41,672 nucleotides of DNA from Pseudomonadota bacterium (lineage in GTDB: Bacteria > Pseudomonadota > Alphaproteobacteria > Acetobacterales > Acetobacteraceae): NCBI GenBank assembly GCA_021801465.1, contig JAJYXY010000014.1, forward strand, positions 1 through 41,672. Reading direction: 5' to 3'. This document shows, one piece after another, positions 3,185 to 41,672 of the stretch (positions are counted from its first letter, which is position 1; each line of letters begins with the position of its first letter). A program made the position numbers and the translations under genes. The notes beneath the pieces are model-generated. The model searched no databases and was not told the DNA's origin. It saw only the letters and a list, made by a program, of their open reading frames with translations.

Positions 3185-4201
3185 TCATGGCTGGGTCGGC
3201 TCGCCAAGTGCTGACGGCGGGGATGGGGGCGGCGGCGCGGTCGCTGGTGGCGGGTTCGCGCCTGCTTGGTTTTTGCCGCCGGCAAGCGCGCCCGGCGGCG
3301 GGTGGCGCTGCTTTTCCATCACCTCGCGCATGCCGGCCGCCGCCTGTTGGGCGACGACGATCGCGACGTCGCCCCAATATTGATCAAGGGTGCCGCTCGG
3401 CACCTCGTTGATCTGAATGATGCGGCCGAGATCATGCCCGCTCGCATCACGCATCTGCCAGCTGATCTCAACCCGGCTATTGCCAGCCGCGGCAGGGGCG
3501 ACATGGACTTCGCCGCCGATCGTGAAATCAGCGGCTTTCGGGTCGTTCTCGACGATCACCCCGAGTAGCGGCAGCTGCAGGCGCATCTGATGCGACAGAG
3601 ACGAATCGCCATCCCCCGGCGCGCCGTCGACGCCGAGCACCGCGACCTTCGCCGGGCGATGATAGAGGCTGTTGGGGTCGTTTTGCTTTTGCGCGGCATC
3701 GATGCTGGTGAGCAGCGTCGCAAGTTTGGGCGCAACATCCTCGGCGGCGCTTTGCAGCACCCCGGCATCGCCGCGCGCCCACGATGAAGCCGGCTCGGGC
3801 AGGCCATCGAGGCTCGCGATTTTCACGCCGGCAGGATTGAGAATGGTATAGCGTGGGGTCACCTGGGCGTGTGCCATCTCGGCGCTGGCGATCAGGCGCC
3901 AATCGCCTTTTTTGCCCGGGCCGGCTTGGGCTGGCACTTCATTGCCGAGAAGGGCAACGGCGAGGTCGGCGGCGAAATTCTTGGCATCCGCGCTCGCGAG
4001 CAGGGCCTCGGTCGGGGGCGGCACGACAAGGCGCGGCGGCGGCGGCTCGACGAGTTGCGCGGTCTCGCCGGTTGGCGGCCCGGCGAAGGGATGCGGCACC
4101 GGAACACACCCGGCGAGCGCCGGGGCCAGTGCGGCGAGGCGAAGGGCGGCGAGGCGAAGGGCGGCGAGGCGAAGGGCGGCGAGGCGAAGGGCGCGTTTCA
4201 T
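3185..4201 (-). CDS. Putative lipoprotein, uncharacterised
   Basis: Signal peptide with lipobox LAGC; 338 aa uninterrupted ORF between pgeF and prs on the same strand; signal region built from LRLAA repeats. Confidence 0.75.
   Translation of the reverse strand: MKRALRLAALRLAALRLAALRLAALAPALAGCVPVPHPFAGPPTGETAQLVEPPPPRLVVPPPTEALLASADAKNFAADLAVALLGNEVPAQAGPGKKGDWRLIASAEMAHAQVTPRYTILNPAGVKIASLDGLPEPASSWARGDAGVLQSAAEDVAPKLATLLTSIDAAQKQNDPNSLYHRPAKVAVLGVDGAPGDGDSSLSHQMRLQLPLLGVIVENDPKAADFTIGGEVHVAPAAAGNSRVEISWQMRDASGHDLGRIIQINEVPSGTLDQYWGDVAIVVAQQAAAGMREVMEKQRHPPPGALAGGKNQAGANPPPATAPPPPSPPSALGEPTQP
4131..4190. repeat. Minisatellite: four exact 15-bp tandem copies of gcggcgaggcgaagg
   Basis: Direct reading of 4131-4145, 4146-4160, 4161-4175, 4176-4190, all identical; encodes (LRLAA)n on the minus strand. 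Confidence 0.97.
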
Positions 4202-24330: not shown

Positions 24331-24344
24331 TTGATCTCGATCAA
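24331..24344. promoter_or_regulatory. Perfect FNR/FixK-type box TTGATctcgATCAA
   Basis: Exact match to TTGAT-N4-ATCAA in the gap between the FtsX gene and the 44-aa sORF. Confidence 0.65.
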
Positions 24345-24406: not shown

Positions 24407-24541
24407 ATGAGCGGTGGAGAAGCGCTGTATCTGGTTTTCGTCGTCGTGACGGCAGCGGTTTTTTCGCTGGCGCTGGCCTGGGTTTCCCGGCAATGCAGTA
24501 AGGGGCAAGTCCTCCTGCCGCCGGAGACTCATAACCACTGA
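24407..24541 (+). CDS. Small membrane protein (44 aa), unannotated in the ORF track
   Basis: ATG with strong RBS (aacAGGGAGGTGgtcgATG); MSGGEALYLVFVVVTAAVFSLALAWVSRQCSKGQVLLPPETHNH*; one predicted TM. Confidence 0.65.
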   Translation: MSGGEALYLVFVVVTAAVFSLALAWVSRQCSKGQVLLPPETHNH

Positions 24542-25951: not shown

Positions 25952-27493
25952 TCAGGCCAGAGGTTCGGGCGGGCCGGCCTCGAAGCTCCGCAGCACTTTT
26001 CCCGAGTCGTGATCCACCTCGTCGAGGCGAACCTCATAGCCCCAGAGATAGGCGAGATGATCGAGCACGCGCTCGGCATCGTCACGCGCCAACATGATCC
26101 CGCGATGGACGCGATTTTGCAAAAGCAGCCGGCGATCGCCATCGAGATCGACATCGACGATTTCGATTTCTGGCTCGTGCTTGACGATATCGAAGCTGTC
26201 GGCGAGCGCGGCGCGGACGGCGCGATAGCCGCGTTCATCGTGGATCGCCTCGACGACGAGATCGGAGCGGCTATCGTCATGGACCGCAAACAGCTTCATC
26301 TTGCGGATCAAGGCTGGACTGAGGAACTGGCGGATGAAGCTCTCATCGCGATAGCCGACCCAGGCTTCGCGCAACGTGCCAAAGGGATCACCATTCCCGG
26401 CGATCTCGGGAAACCATGCCCGGTCTTCCTCGGTCGGGGCTTTGGTGATGCGGGCGATGTCTTGCATCATCGCGAACCCGAGCGCGTAAGGATTGATCCC
26501 GGAAAATCGGGGATCATCGAAATCTGGCTGAAAAACCACGCTGGTATGCGAGTGGAGAAATTCCAGCATGCCGCCATCGTCGAGCACGCCTCGCTCATGC
26601 AGACGGTTCATGATGTGATAATGGACGAAGGTGGCGCACCCCTCATTCATCACCTTGGTTTGCTTTTGCGGATAGAAATACTGCGCGACATGGCGGACGA
26701 TGCGGAGGATCTCGCGTTGCCAGGGCTTCAAGAGCGGTGATTTTTTTTCGAGGAAATAAAGAATGTTTTCCTCGGGCAAGCCGAGCAAGCGGCGGCGCTC
26801 GGCAAGCTCGGGATGGCGCCTCTCCGAGCCCTTGGCATTTGGCAGGGTCCGCCACAAATCATTAAAATTACGCTCTTCGTCGGCACGCCGATCGGCTTCG
26901 CGCCGGGCTTCTTCGGCGAGGTCGAGGCCGCGGCGGCGCGGGTAGCGATTGACCCCTTGGCCCATGAGCGCATGCGCCGCATCGAGCACGCGTTCCACCT
27001 CCGCCTCGCCATATTTGTCCTCGCAGCGCGCGATATAGGCTTTGGCGAAATCCATGTAATCGAGAATGCCGCTGGCATCGGTCCATTGCCGAAAGAGCGC
27101 GTTGTTCTTAAAAAAATGATTATGCCCGAATGCCGCATGCGCTAACACCAGGGCCTGCATCGTCATCGAATTCTCCTCCATGATATAGACGATGCATGGA
27201 TTCGAATTGATCACGATCTCATAGGCGAGACTGCTATAGCCGTTGCGATAAAGCGCCTCATCGCGCGCGAAACGCTTGCCGAAGGACCAATGGCGGTACA
27301 TCAGCGGCAAGCCGATCGAGGAATAGGCGTCGAGCATCTGTTCTGAGGTGATGACTTCGATCTGGTTTGGATAGGTGTCAAGACCGAGCTCGCCCCGCGC
27401 AATCTCTTCGATCAGATCGTGGGCGCGGCGAAGGTCGGAAAAATTCCACTCCTTGCCAGAAGAAATGACAAATTGTTCAGTGCTCGCGCTCAT
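25952..27493 (-). CDS. SpoVR family protein (YcgB)
   Basis: QMLDAYSSIGLPLMYRHWSFGKRFARDE..., EGCATFVHYHIMNRLHE; third gene of the prkA-yeaH-spoVR set. Confidence 0.95.
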   Translation of the reverse strand: MSASTEQFVISSGKEWNFSDLRRAHDLIEEIARGELGLDTYPNQIEVITSEQMLDAYSSIGLPLMYRHWSFGKRFARDEALYRNGYSSLAYEIVINSNPCIVYIMEENSMTMQALVLAHAAFGHNHFFKNNALFRQWTDASGILDYMDFAKAYIARCEDKYGEAEVERVLDAAHALMGQGVNRYPRRRGLDLAEEARREADRRADEERNFNDLWRTLPNAKGSERRHPELAERRRLLGLPEENILYFLEKKSPLLKPWQREILRIVRHVAQYFYPQKQTKVMNEGCATFVHYHIMNRLHERGVLDDGGMLEFLHSHTSVVFQPDFDDPRFSGINPYALGFAMMQDIARITKAPTEEDRAWFPEIAGNGDPFGTLREAWVGYRDESFIRQFLSPALIRKMKLFAVHDDSRSDLVVEAIHDERGYRAVRAALADSFDIVKHEPEIEIVDVDLDGDRRLLLQNRVHRGIMLARDDAERVLDHLAYLWGYEVRLDEVDHDSGKVLRSFEAGPPEPLA

Positions 27494-28782
27494 ACCACGC
27501 CCTCGCTTCGCACGGCTTTATCGCGTGAGAAAAGTTGCCTGAAAACCGGATAAATCTGGCTCCGGTGATTGACCTTACGCATCGCGATCGGCATGCCGGT
27601 TTGCGCGATTCGCTGATAGGCACGCCAAAGTTCAGTCGATCCGCCGTAACGCTCATCCTCCGGCCCAACCTCCAGATAGGCGAAATACTGGCACAAGGGC
27701 AGGATCGACTGTTCGAGCAAAGCGACGGCATGCGCATTGTCGGCGGGCATATTGTCACCGTCGGACGCCTGTGCTGCGTAGACATTCCATTGCTCGCGCG
27801 GATAGCGGGCGCGCAACACCCGGACCATTTCCTCGAGCGCAGTCGAGACAACGGTGCCACCCGATTCGGTCGAAGAAAAAAACGTCTCTTCATCGACTTC
27901 ACGGGCAATGTGGGTGTGACGGATGAACACGATTTCAACCCGCTTGTAGCGGCGGCTGAGGAAGAGATAGAGCAATTTATAAAAACGCTTGGCGAGATCC
28001 TTCATGTGCGCGGTCATCGAACCGGAAACATCCATGAGGCAAAACATCACCGCGCTCGCTGCCGGTCGTGGCACATCCTCGAAGCGGTTATAGCGCACAT
28101 CGATCGGATCGATGAACGGGATGCGCCGGGCGCGGCGGCGGGCATGCTCGATTTCCCCGGCGATTTCGGCAAGCGTCGCGGGATCGGCTGCCTCTTCCTC
28201 GCTCAGGCGGCTGAATTCCGCTTCGCGTGCGGCGATGTCTTCGGGGCGCGGGCGGCGAAGCGCGATACGGCGAGAGAGAGAGTTGCGCATCGTGCGCACG
28301 ACATTGAGATTGGCGGCGGCACCGCTTGTCTGAAATCCCGCACGACGCGGCGTCACCCCTTCGGCTTCACGCAACTCCTTACGCAAAAGATCGGGAAGCT
28401 CGAGATCTTCGAGGAATAGATCGATGAATTCGTCGCGGCTCAAGACGAACTGGAAAGCATCCTCGCTCTCCCCATCGGGCGAGCCGCCACGCCCGCGGCC
28501 TTCACCTTGCGGTGGGCGAGGAATGCGATCGCCCTCGATATATTCCTTGTTGCCGGGGGCGACATGCCAACGCTCTCCCCCCTCGGCGCCGTGATGGAGA
28601 TGCGGCTCGCGTAATGTGTCGGCACGGATGCGGATGCGATTATCAGCCGGGCCGGTAATGCCATCACGTGCCGACGCTTCGCGCACAGCGTCGAGAATCT
28701 GCTTGCGGGCGCGGCGGAGAAAGCGCTGCCGATTGGCGAGACTTTTGCCCTTGGGATTGAGACGTCTGTCGATGATATTCAC
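27490..28782 (-). CDS. YeaH/YhbH (DUF444) family protein
   Basis: MNIIDRRLNPKGKSLANRQRFLRRAR...FCLMDVSGSMTAHMKDLAKRFYKLLYLFLSRRY (VWA-like). Confidence 0.95.
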   Translation of the reverse strand: MNIIDRRLNPKGKSLANRQRFLRRARKQILDAVREASARDGITGPADNRIRIRADTLREPHLHHGAEGGERWHVAPGNKEYIEGDRIPRPPQGEGRGRGGSPDGESEDAFQFVLSRDEFIDLFLEDLELPDLLRKELREAEGVTPRRAGFQTSGAAANLNVVRTMRNSLSRRIALRRPRPEDIAAREAEFSRLSEEEAADPATLAEIAGEIEHARRRARRIPFIDPIDVRYNRFEDVPRPAASAVMFCLMDVSGSMTAHMKDLAKRFYKLLYLFLSRRYKRVEIVFIRHTHIAREVDEETFFSSTESGGTVVSTALEEMVRVLRARYPREQWNVYAAQASDGDNMPADNAHAVALLEQSILPLCQYFAYLEVGPEDERYGGSTELWRAYQRIAQTGMPIAMRKVNHRSQIYPVFRQLFSRDKAVRSEGVV

Positions 28783-28806
28783 GCGCCACTCCGCCTGTTT
28801 GTTCGT

Positions 28807-30753
28807 TCAGCCAGCCTGTTTCGCGCGCATATACCACTCGACCAGGCGACGCACTTGCCGCTCGGTATAGCCACGCGACATCATGCGCTGGACGAACTCA
28901 TTGTGCTTTTTCTCGGTCTCGTTTTCCTTCTTGCTACCGAAGCTGATCACGGGGAGTAATTCCTCGACCTGGCTGAACATGCGCCGCTCGATCACTTCGC
29001 GGATTTTCTCGTACGATGTCCATGCCGGGTTGCGCCCCGCGTTGGCGGCGCGAGCGCGGAGCGAGAATTTCACCACCTCGTTACGGAAATCCTTGGGATT
29101 GGCAATGCCGGCGGGCTTTTCGATCTTCGTCAGCTCAAGATTGAGCAATTCGCGATCCATCAGCTGCCCGGTGTCGGGATCCTTGAAATCCTGATGCTCG
29201 ATCCAGGCATCGGCATAATCGACATAGCGGTCGAACAGATTCTGCCCGTAATCGTTATAGGATTCGAGATAAGCCTTCTGAATCTCATTGCCGATGAACT
29301 CGGCATAGCGCGGCGCGAGTTCGGCTTTGATGAATTCGAGATATTTCTTCTCGACCTCATTGCCGAACTGCTCGCGCCGGATCGCTTGTTCGAGCACATA
29401 CATCAAATGCACCGCATCCGCACCGACCTCTTGGGTGTCGTAGTTGAAGGTCGCCGACAACACCTTGAAGGCAAAGCGCGTGGAGACGCCATCCATACCT
29501 TCATCGAGGCCGGCGGCATCACGATATTCCTGTACGGACTTGGCGTGAGGGTCGGTTTCCTTCAAGCTCTCGCCGTCATAGACGCGCATTTTGGAAAATA
29601 GGCTGCCAGACGCCGGTGGGCGAAGGCGTGAAAGCACAGAGAACCGCGCCAGCATCTCGAGCGTGCCTGGCGCACACGGGCTCTCGGCGAGTTCGCTGCC
29701 CTGGATCAGCTTTTCGTAGATGCGCTCTTCCTCGGTCACGCGCAGGCAATAGGGCACCTTGATTACACAAATGCGATCGATGAAGGCTTCGTTGTTCTTG
29801 TTGTTGCGGAAACTCTGCCACTCTGCCTCGTTGGAGTGGGCGAGAATGATGCCCTGGAAGGGGATTGCACCGATATTCTCGGTGCCGACGTAATTGCCCT
29901 CCTGCGTTGCCGTCAGCAGCGGATGCAGCATCTTGATCGGCGCCTTGAACATCTCGACGAATTCGAGCAGCCCTTGCGTCGCGCGGTTGAGACCGCCGGA
30001 ATAGCTGTAGGCATCGGGATCGTTTTGGCTGTAATGCTCAAGCAGGCGGATATCGACTTTGCCGACCATGCTAGAGATATCTTGGTTGTTCTCGTCCCCC
30101 GGCTCGGTTTTGGTAACACCGACCTGACGCGCGCGCGAGGGATGGAGACGGACCACGCGAAACCGCTCGATATCGCCACCGAACTCATCGAGCCGCTTGA
30201 GCGCCCATGGCGAAAGCAGACCCGTCAGGCGTCGGCGCGGGATGTGATAGCGTTTCTCAAGCTCATCACCCATGAGATCGGGATCGAAAAGGCCGAGCGG
30301 GCTCTCAAACACCGGGCTCACCTGATCGCCGGCTTTGAGGACGTAAATCGGCAATTTCTCCATCAATTGCTTCAGCCGCTCGGCGAGCGAGGATTTACCC
30401 CCGCCGACGGGGCCGAGCAGGTAGAGAATCTGCTTACGCTCCTCGAGTCCTTGGGCGGCGAACCGGAAGAAATTGACGATTCGCTCGATAGTCTCCTCCA
30501 TCCCATAAAAATCCGCGAAGCCGGAATAAACCCGAATGGTGCGGTTCATGAACACGCGGCCGAGACGCGGATCTTTCGCCGTATCGACAATTTCCGGATC
30601 GCCAATGGCGGCCACCATGCGCTCGGCGGCGGTGGCATGGGCCATCGGATCGCCCCGGCAAAGATCGAGATATTCGCTCAGCGACATCTCGCTCTCACGC
30701 TTGCTCTCGTAAGCGCGCCGGGACCGGGAAAACAGCTCTTCGATGAAACTCAT
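28807..30753 (-). CDS. prkA: PrkA family serine protein kinase (YeaG)
   Basis: LGPVGGGKSSLAERLKQLMEKLPIYVLKAGDQVSPVFESPLGLFDP; AAA-PrkA domain pattern; operon context. Confidence 0.96.
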   Translation of the reverse strand: MSFIEELFSRSRRAYESKRESEMSLSEYLDLCRGDPMAHATAAERMVAAIGDPEIVDTAKDPRLGRVFMNRTIRVYSGFADFYGMEETIERIVNFFRFAAQGLEERKQILYLLGPVGGGKSSLAERLKQLMEKLPIYVLKAGDQVSPVFESPLGLFDPDLMGDELEKRYHIPRRRLTGLLSPWALKRLDEFGGDIERFRVVRLHPSRARQVGVTKTEPGDENNQDISSMVGKVDIRLLEHYSQNDPDAYSYSGGLNRATQGLLEFVEMFKAPIKMLHPLLTATQEGNYVGTENIGAIPFQGIILAHSNEAEWQSFRNNKNNEAFIDRICVIKVPYCLRVTEEERIYEKLIQGSELAESPCAPGTLEMLARFSVLSRLRPPASGSLFSKMRVYDGESLKETDPHAKSVQEYRDAAGLDEGMDGVSTRFAFKVLSATFNYDTQEVGADAVHLMYVLEQAIRREQFGNEVEKKYLEFIKAELAPRYAEFIGNEIQKAYLESYNDYGQNLFDRYVDYADAWIEHQDFKDPDTGQLMDRELLNLELTKIEKPAGIANPKDFRNEVVKFSLRARAANAGRNPAWTSYEKIREVIERRMFSQVEELLPVISFGSKKENETEKKHNEFVQRMMSRGYTERQVRRLVEWYMRAKQAG

Positions 30754-31277
30754 CGTCGCTCCGTGGCTCTGTTAGGGAGAGGATGGGGAAAGGCGGTGGA
30801 TACGGCTCCTTCTGCGCCTCAGCAGGTATGTTCTTTTTTTGTTCTAGCTAGTACGCGGTTTTAAGGGCGATTGCGCGGCGGCACAAGGAATATTTTCCGC
30901 GCCACGCCACGCGGGAGCGCCCTCCATGATCAGGCCTTGCGATTCGACGACGTGCCATGCCCATTCCTCGCTGTAATCGCGGCTTGGCGCGGCGGTTTCA
31001 GATAGCGCCGCGCGGCGCCATCGGCATCTCATCATTTATCAGTCTAGCACGAACGTGGTACCGATTACTTAATTTTCCAGCATACCCTCGTAAGCTTTGC
31101 TTCATCCTCATGCTTTGCGGCCTTTCAGCAACACCACCCCTCTGACCATCAGATCGCGTCGAGGAATCCCCACCTCGCTGAACCGATCGGAAAAAGAGCC
31201 GAGACACCATCGCTCGCCTTCGGAGCCCGACAGATCGAAATGTGAAGCAATGAACGTGCCACGGGCGCACGGCGACG

Positions 31278-31313
31278 AAAAAGGGCCGCCCGCCATTTTT
31301 TGGCAAGCGGCCC
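31278..31313 (-). terminator. Rho-independent terminator of the repeat-protein gene
   Basis: Minus strand GGGCCGCTTGCCAAAAAATGGCGGGCGGCCCTTTTT: GC stem followed by T5, 42 bp past the stop codon. Confidence 0.8.
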
Positions 31314-31355
31314 CCAATTCGTCATCACTCTGCCCCTTTTTTGGGGCCTTGCGCG

Positions 31356-31682
31356 TTACTCGCAGTGCGCGGCAGCGAGATTGGTGCTGTCGCTCTCGGT
31401 CGGCGGTTTGCCCTGCGCCAGCGTCGTGTTGCCCTCTTCAGTCGGGGGCTTGCCGGCAGCGAGGGTCGTATTGCCAGCCTCGGTCGGCGGCTTGCCCGCC
31501 GCAAGCGTCGTGTTGCCAGCCTCGGTCGGCGGTTTACCGGCAGCAAGCGAAGTATTGCCAGCCTCGGTCGGCGGTTTGCCCGCGGCGAGATTAGCGCACG
31601 CAGGGTTTGTGCTTCCAGCATGTGCAACGCCAAAACCCGCAAGCAAGGCAGCAGCCGTACCAACAAGAAGAAGATTTTTCAT
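31356..31682 (-). CDS. Small secreted/periplasmic tandem-repeat protein (108 aa; five 14-aa repeats), uncharacterised
   Basis: Sec signal MKNLLLVGTAAALLAGFGVAHA; RBS AGGAG upstream of ATG at 31682 (track start at 31715 has poorer context); repeats LAAGKPPTEAGNTT; own promoter and terminator. Confidence 0.82.
   Translation of the reverse strand: MKNLLLVGTAAALLAGFGVAHAGSTNPACANLAAGKPPTEAGNTSLAAGKPPTEAGNTTLAAGKPPTEAGNTTLAAGKPPTEEGNTTLAQGKPPTESDSTNLAAAHCE
31383..31592. repeat. Five tandem 42-bp units encoding (N/S/T)LAxGKPPTExxxT
   Basis: Read directly: NLAAGKPPTEAGNT/SLAAGKPPTEAGNT/TLAAGKPPTEAGNT/TLAAGKPPTEEGNT/TLAQGKPPTESDST. Confidence 0.97.
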
Positions 31683-31750
31683 GGCCCACAGACTCCTTTT
31701 GTGCTTTGAGATCAAGTGGTGAAGAGATCCCGCTCCTCACTTCGTTTGTA

Positions 31751-31792
31751 CTTATAGAAAGGTTACGTCTGACGCGCCTTGATGCAGATCAG
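31751..31792 (-). promoter_or_regulatory. Putative class II FNR/FixK promoter for the repeat protein
   Basis: Minus strand CTGATctgcATCAA (31792-31779; one mismatch to TTGAT-N4-ATCAA), exactly 22 bp, then TATAAG (31756-31751): spacing expected for a box centred at -41.5. Confidence 0.6.
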
Positions 31793-40897: not shown

Positions 40898-40911
40898 TTG
40901 ATCTCGATCAA
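40898..40911. promoter_or_regulatory. Perfect FNR/FixK-type box TTGATctcgATCAA
   Basis: Exact TTGAT-N4-ATCAA match, identical 14-mer to 24331-24344, 75 bp upstream of the ATG at 40986. Confidence 0.55.
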
Positions 40912-40985
40912 TGCCGGGCGGTCTTGGCGCGACCAAGTCGAAGGATCGCGGTTTTTCCGCCCTTTGGCTGCCCGGGAGATCGAAC

Positions 40986-41672
40986 ATGGCTTATCTCAAT
41001 CTTCCCGCATTGAATGCGGTCTCGGCCGAGGCGTTTCAGCACCAACGCCCCTATCCTTGGACGCGGATGCAAAACACGCTCACCGATGATGGCTGGGAGG
41101 ATTTGCGCGCGCATTTGCCCGACATGGCGCAGTTTCAGCGCATGGTCGGCGTCAAGCGCGCCCATGGTCAGGCGCCGCATAACCGCGGCATTCTGCACTA
41201 TGTCGAGGGGATGGCGGTCGCGCCGCCCTGGCGGGAATTCATCGCCGAATTGCACGGCCCCGCTTATGACGCGTTCCTCCGCCGCATGCTCGGCTTCGGG
41301 CCGCGGCAGAAATACATCCTCACCATGGAATGGTATTACGCTTGGCAAGGCTGCTCGGTCTCGCCGCATTGTGATGCGCGCCGCAAAATCGCAACGCATA
41401 TCTTCTTTTTTGCCAATGACCAGGATTGGCCGCGTGAGTGGGGCGGCGATATCCTGATTCTCGACGATGAAGGGCGCTACAAAGCCCATTCGGCGCCGGG
41501 TTTCGAGGATCTCAAGGTCGCGGCTTCGCTTGATCTTCGCAACAACGGCAGCCTCCTCTTCCAGCGCACCGAGCATTCCTGGCACGGCGTGCGCCCGCTG
41601 CAGGCGCCGCGCCCCGATGTCTATCGCAAACTCTTCATCGTCACCGTGAATGTGCCATCGTTCCAGGTCTGG
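40986..41672 (+). CDS. 2OG-Fe(II) oxygenase-like protein (partial, runs off right edge)
   Basis: MAYLNLPALNAVSAEAFQHQRPYPWTRMQNTLTDDGWEDLRAHLPDM...SVSPHCDARRKIATHIFFFANDQDWPREWGGDILILDD...TEHSWHGVRPL: HxD...H pattern; open to window end, so missing from the ORF track. Confidence 0.78.
   Translation, partial: MAYLNLPALNAVSAEAFQHQRPYPWTRMQNTLTDDGWEDLRAHLPDMAQFQRMVGVKRAHGQAPHNRGILHYVEGMAVAPPWREFIAELHGPAYDAFLRRMLGFGPRQKYILTMEWYYAWQGCSVSPHCDARRKIATHIFFFANDQDWPREWGGDILILDDEGRYKAHSAPGFEDLKVAASLDLRNNGSLLFQRTEHSWHGVRPLQAPRPDVYRKLFIVTVNVPSFQVW

Follow-up and report, generated by a model that had tools for sequence, protein, structure and literature searches.

We asked whether an open reading frame built almost entirely of a 14-residue repeat, found in a 41,672-nucleotide stretch of bacterial DNA (the window), is a real gene and, if so, what its product might do. 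As judged from the sequence comparisons below, the repeat protein represents a real, narrowly distributed family that has not been described before; its frame is unusual, and control by oxygen is well supported by the sequence. The host genus of the window is Acidibrevibacterium, an acid-mine genus of the Acetobacteraceae (PMC9583776). One plasmid contig of G001, the nearest relative with a complete genome, matches NZ_CP029177 of Acidibrevibacterium fodinaquatile at 100% identity, and therefore we assign the window to a species of that genus.

The coding sequence lies on the minus strand (31356..31682) and specifies 108 amino acids plus a stop codon. Its translation is identical, letter for letter, to that given in an earlier sequence-only reading of this DNA, which confirms the layout described there: a signal peptide, five 14-residue repeats and two flanking cysteines. 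That reading had placed the gene at 31356-31715. The end at 31356 stands, but 31715 is an in-frame upstream TTG, and the likely start codon is the ATG at 31682, which is common to the orthologues and has a ribosome binding site, AAAAGGAG (31693..31700, minus strand), 10 nt to its 5' side; the orthologues also have a purine-rich site. A Sec-type signal peptide of 22 residues, MKNLLLVGTAAALLAGFGVAHA (31617..31682, minus strand; predicted cleavage between AHA and GS), was judged by eye and by its conservation among the orthologues. The mature chain then runs from GSTNPACA through the five units to NLAAAHCE. In order, the units are NLAAGKPPTEAGNT, SLAAGKPPTEAGNT, TLAAGKPPTEAGNT, TLAAGKPPTEEGNT and TLAQGKPPTESDST, with the consensus TLAAGKPPTEAGNT (31383..31592, minus strand); Tandem Repeats Finder places the array at 31395-31582 with a period of 42. 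Two cysteines, mature residues 7 and 85 of 86, stand one on each side of the repeat block (codons 31596..31598 and 31362..31364, minus strand); there are no others, and both are invariant in six orthologues. Elsewhere in the window, a perfect 15-bp tandem repeat of 4.2 copies, MKRALRLAALRLAALRLAALRLAALAPALAGC (4131-4193), lies in a putative lipoprotein gene (3185-4201, minus strand), in the part that codes for the signal peptide.

Is the array maintained for the sake of the peptide that it encodes? Among the five units of the window, pS is 0.58 and pN is 0.13, that is, silent sites are saturated and the peptide is kept. The pN/pS ratio is 0.22 for the repeat units; between orthologues it is 0.17 for the signal region and 0.06 for the C-terminus. 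At the DNA level, the units are 75% identical among themselves and 75-79% identical to the units of other species. Since divergence within the window equals that between species, the array appears to be old and preserved by selection on the peptide rather than newly expanded. On these comparisons the repeat peptide is under purifying selection. A chance low-complexity reading frame is excluded because the orthologues keep the signal, the repeat and both cysteines, and because the units differ mostly silently; on this point the earlier view that the gene is real holds. One could argue that the true product is instead an antisense frame, as 140 codons are open on the plus strand over the array (31300-31722) and show a similarly low pN/pS of 0.25. 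However, the third positions of this frame face those of the sense frame, so a low ratio is to be expected, and promoter, ribosome binding site, signal peptide and terminator are all on the minus strand and all conserved. We give the antisense frame next to no weight.

Orthologues were found in four of the five other genomes of the genus, with 6, 7, 6 and 7 units, and in one genome outside it (G137, genus g133), with 11 units of the type LAAGKPPTMENNTQ. The sequence-only reading had made its case depend on homologues with a conserved signal peptide and repeat in related genomes. Such relatives exist: counting the window, there are six orthologues with fixed ends and 5-11 units per genome. The same TPR gene precedes the orthologues upstream, also in G137, where the TPR protein is 63% identical. 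In G003, the remaining genome of the genus (a draft, about 90% complete), the best-matching TPR gene has an MscL-like gene behind it, and hence the repeat gene is missing from the matching place. A partial copy of the repeat gene begins at the edge of contig L024. In the G137 orthologue (L036 / L091), KPPTMENNT and RPPSEEDNT units alternate, and the next genes code for a cupredoxin and an FTR1-like iron permease, not for PrkA. In the window, homologues of prkA, yeaH and spoVR, apparently one operon (25952-30753), lie downstream of the repeat gene, with a terminator between.

A search of 398 genomes of Acetobacteraceae gave no further member of the family (G173, discussed below, carries a separate set of proteins). 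No member was seen in an order-level genome sample, nor in a class-level sample searched with a profile of the repeat block. Neither viral contigs nor plasmids contained a true relative; the plasmid matches were YadA-like low complexity and an unannotated stretch. Several candidates were rejected. The match in L025 reads like an ADP-ribosylglycohydrolase that has the peptide KGKPPTEAGN in common with the repeat, which we took as chance. The matches in G015, G020, G024, G041, G052, G058, G086, G098, G577, G700 and G704 had weak E-values, as had those in G176 and G199, which on reading were other repeats or other genes. The distribution of the gene is thus narrow and patchy. Because it is missing in most of the family and at the matching place in G003, it seems dispensable where it is absent.

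The protein could not be assigned to any family. The best Pfam match scored 13.1 bits against a cut-off of 25.6, the best NCBIfam match 15.6 bits against a cut-off of 2500, and the best PDB match, a human complement receptor, had an E-value of 0.022, so that no significant solved relative was found. The orthologues likewise matched no described family, and we found no description of the repeat protein in the literature. The suspicion that this is not a described family is therefore borne out by these searches. A bacterial lipoprotein was considered and ruled out: there is no lipobox with a cysteine at +1, as the first cysteine is mature residue 7, in the context NPAC and with no L-x-x-C.

Next, we considered the two cysteines. 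In all six orthologues, they are the only ones, the first at mature residue 6-7 and the second no more than 1-3 residues from the end. A comparable frame was seen in four exported two-cysteine repeat proteins of another acetobacterial genus, g52 (three paralogues in G056 and one in G173). These have a Sec signal, a cysteine at mature residue 7-8, at least four tandem units of 14 or 17 residues (AEAEGGGVGSxNLxTRK or ADSEGGNPAFATRK) and a second cysteine 1-5 residues, or 2-6 positions, from the end. Like the Acidibrevibacterium family, they combine the signal, the end cysteines and tandem repeats with a near-neutral charge; on the other hand, their unit sequence and their neighbours (glnD, a DegP-like protease and others) are different. 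Of the g52 loci (L066, L067 and L068 in G056, L065 in G173), two lie behind glnD, and the copy at L066 faces the gene of the DegP-like protease. About 1% of proteins would show such a frame if two cysteines were placed at random, where only two independent cases are to be counted because the members within each set are related. The end-to-end disulfide raised as a possibility in the sequence-only reading becomes more plausible with end cysteines in 6/6 orthologues and in four proteins with a different repeat, and from this pattern we infer that a single disulfide may close the repeat protein end to end.

Are the two sets homologous? A first hint of homology between the KPPTE and AEAEGG families (E 4e-7) was discarded: the opposite strand there reached 3e-6 as well, and the common 14-residue period must therefore have inflated the value. 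A profile comparison of the Acidibrevibacterium family with the g52 set gave a 3% probability of homology. Either the same design came about twice or the two sets share a very remote ancestor. It is possible, if doubtful, that the cysteine-clasped repeat is a recurrent acetobacterial envelope design, in which the repeat is hydrophilic but otherwise free in sequence and copy number and is held in a loop by one end-to-end disulfide, the ends being the conserved functional part; in Acidibrevibacterium it would be made when oxygen falls.

We then asked how the gene is controlled. The sole conserved block upstream of it is [CT]TGATC-N3-[AG]TCAA, present in 6/6 orthologues including that of G137. 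In the window it reads CTGATCTGCATCAA (31779..31792, minus strand) and is an FNR/FixK-type operator. Exactly 22 nt after it comes a -10-like hexamer, TATAAG (31751..31756, minus strand), and in 6/6 orthologues the distance from box to TA-rich hexamer is exactly 22 nt. Sites of class II FNR-type activators are centred at -41.5. The 22-nt spacing puts the box at this position, with a predicted transcription start at about 31744, so that both sequence and location agree with a class II FNR/FixK operator (YTGAT-N4-RTCAA near -41.5). The operator also fits the FnrL consensus, (T/C/A)TGA-N6-TCAA (PMC4634722).

The pattern of the box occurs at 28 sites in the genome, against none for a reversed pattern, whose value as a control is limited because it contains CTAG. 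Among the genes that follow the same box are those of a CydD-type exporter, UbiT, a PHA synthase and the 6-hydroxycyclohex-1-ene-1-carbonyl-CoA dehydrogenase of the benzoyl-CoA pathway; the remaining sites look intragenic or ambiguous. As far as gene content can tell, cydD, ubiT, the PHA synthase gene and the benzoyl-CoA pathway gene are in keeping with an oxygen-poor regulon. The genome thus holds other anaerobic targets and also encodes a putative cognate regulator, an FNR-like protein with Cys-X2-Cys-X7-Cys, one further cysteine and an ETISR recognition helix; in NCBIfam it comes closest to FixK, FnrL and Fnr, in each case under the curated cut-off. Two further boxes in the window are perfect palindromes. 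The first, TTGATCTCGATCAA (24331-24344), stands 22 nt before TCAAAT, and behind it is a 44-residue open reading frame at about 24407-24541 (MSGGEALYLVFVVVTAAVFSLALAWVSRQCSKGQVLLPPETHNH) without a Pfam match. The second (40898-40911) is upstream of a 2OG-Fe(II) oxygenase-like gene (40974-41663). At L124, the same kind of box lies between ubiT and a gene whose product is similar, by eye, to the 2OG-Fe(II) oxygenase-like protein.

Downstream of the gene, an intrinsic terminator is predicted from a 14-bp GC-rich stem and a U-tract (about 31277..31314, minus strand), with a folding z of -6.0 against shuffled sequences. Similar terminators occur 3' of the gene in four orthologues of the genus (G001, G002, G004 and G005). 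A simple consensus scanner found neither promoter nor terminator; note that its promoter scan covers sigma-70 -35 sites only, and that the folding contradicts its terminator result. The promoter and terminator that the sequence-only reading had ascribed to the gene thus both have conserved counterparts, and the conserved box supports its hint at low oxygen. From the box, its geometry, the regulator, the other targets and the terminator, we therefore take low-oxygen activation of a monocistronic gene as the best reading of the sequence.

Combined with the low-oxygen promoter, the invariant two-cysteine frame might suggest a redox switch, in which the disulfide would close the clasp in the presence of oxidant and open it under oxygen-poor or reducing conditions; the span of the chain, and with it the binding to a partner, would change accordingly. 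However, neither a partner nor a sign of reversible reduction was seen, a structural disulfide accounts for the same pattern, and the four g52 analogues have no FNR-type box in the 400 nt upstream of their genes. We regard such a switch as distinctly unlikely.

What would the chain between the cysteines look like? The mature protein of the window has no aromatic residue, a fraction of charged residues (FCR) of 0.15, a net charge of -3 and a GRAVY of -0.64. At 0.429, against 0.426 for the Uversky line, it falls barely on the ordered side of the charge-hydropathy plot. Of the ten clasped proteins, six are clearly on the disordered side and that of G001 marginally so, and the window protein and two others are slightly above the line. 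Two AlphaFold models built from four-sequence alignments reached pLDDT values of 42 and 45 and pTM values of 0.25 and 0.33, where with so shallow an alignment a low pLDDT is no proof of disorder. Taken with the models, this agrees with a repeat protein that may be largely disordered.

On the other hand, both models place a strand of 3-4 residues at the equivalent position of each unit (in the seven-unit model, in every unit), and the length of the unit is constant within the family. This would fit a short beta-solenoid with one coil per unit, in which the cysteines cap the ends or link molecules head to tail into fibres, giving a structural or binding rod in the envelope. Against it stand the low pLDDT and pTM values, the Gly-Lys-Pro-Pro that recurs in every unit, a supply of no more than one or two hydrophobic residues from each unit to form a core, and the lack of a solved relative in the PDB search; moreover, Jorda et al. 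(2010, as cited in PMC7230257) reportedly noted that near-perfect repeats tend to be unstructured. We consider a solenoid unlikely.

Two further roles had been suggested in the sequence-only reading, and neither fits well. Binding of a metal or cofactor in the periplasm would suit an acid, metal-rich habitat, and in G137 most units contain methionine and the cupredoxin and iron permease genes follow. The units of the window, however, hold no His, Cys or Met, glutamate ligands are weak at low pH, and the G137 neighbours are not shared by Acidibrevibacterium, where prkA follows; we think such a role improbable. A multi-core precursor of a modified or cleaved peptide (RiPP-like) would explain a leader-like signal in front of identical units, and the TPR gene gives a weak hint with a sub-threshold match to a peptide-modification model. 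However, the immediate neighbours are the TPR protein and the prkA-yeaH-spoVR operon, with no candidate tailoring enzyme among the neighbours examined, there is no cleavage motif between the units, the cysteines are outside them, and the signal directs export by Sec. This makes a peptide precursor very improbable.

Tentatively, we propose as quite possible that a fall in oxygen induces the repeat protein, which is then exported and closed into a loop by a single disulfide, and that this disordered loop serves the acidic periplasm as a protectant or spacer. The FNR-like regulator would switch the gene on as oxygen drops, and Sec would export the chain into the acidic periplasm. There it would remain mostly disordered, being a perfect repeat that is hydrophilic, almost neutral and rich in Pro, Gly and Thr. 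Oxidation of the two end cysteines would then give a closed loop of about 80-165 residues that could work in bulk, against aggregation or by crowding, with its ends guarded against exoproteolysis and its unit number free to vary. The hydrophilic, aromatic-free chain, its charge-hydropathy at the boundary of disorder and the low pLDDT fit such a chain; nothing among the observations, however, is specific to protection as opposed to another role. The gene and its control appear well supported: over two genera, the alignments contain the gene, an export signal, a repeat under selection, two end cysteines and a predicted class II FNR-type promoter. Induction, periplasmic localisation, the disulfide, disorder and a protective role are what we infer beyond this.

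Small exported repeat proteins are usually passed over as low complexity. Here, the conserved, predicted oxygen-responsive promoter, the strong selection on the repeat peptide and the invariant two-cysteine frame turn an orphan into a testable member of an acidophile's anaerobic regulon. Should the clasp prove to be a disulfide, nature would offer in this periplasmic protein a disordered chain closed by a covalent bond, with relevance to envelope stress at low pH and to protein design.

We wanted to know whether known systems resemble this protein. Bd0108 of Bdellovibrio is an exported disordered protein whose one disulfide is a central CXXC and which acts with its partner Bd0109 in pilus control (PMC4267844). 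Both proteins are Sec-exported, periplasmic (as predicted here) and of similar size, with one disulfide (again predicted here) and no known family; Bd0108 differs in having the central CXXC in place of an end-to-end clasp, and a long tandem array is not reported for it. Hydrophilins and LEA-like proteins, of which Zmo0994 is an example, are defined by more than 6% glycine and a hydrophilicity index above 1 (PMC7448490). With 11.6% glycine and a hydrophilic, repeat-like chain, the repeat protein resembles them, but its hydrophilicity, taken as the negative mean Kyte-Doolittle value, stays under 1 (GRAVY -0.64 in the window, -0.64 to -0.92 in the ten proteins), Pfam finds no LEA motif in it, and it has the cysteine clasp. 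Asr of E. coli is of repetitive composition and strongly basic. It is an example of a small, disordered protein of the periplasm that serves as a major stress chaperone (PMC10746267). Unlike Asr, the repeat protein is near-neutral, has two end cysteines and FNR-type, not acid-specific, control, and the Pfam acid-shock repeat model is absent among all its matches up to E 10. Both, however, are small and Sec-exported, with few hydrophobic residues and a stress-type promoter, and the repeat protein may likewise be periplasmic and disordered. By analogy, Asr may serve as a precedent for the mode of action of the repeat protein and not as its relative.
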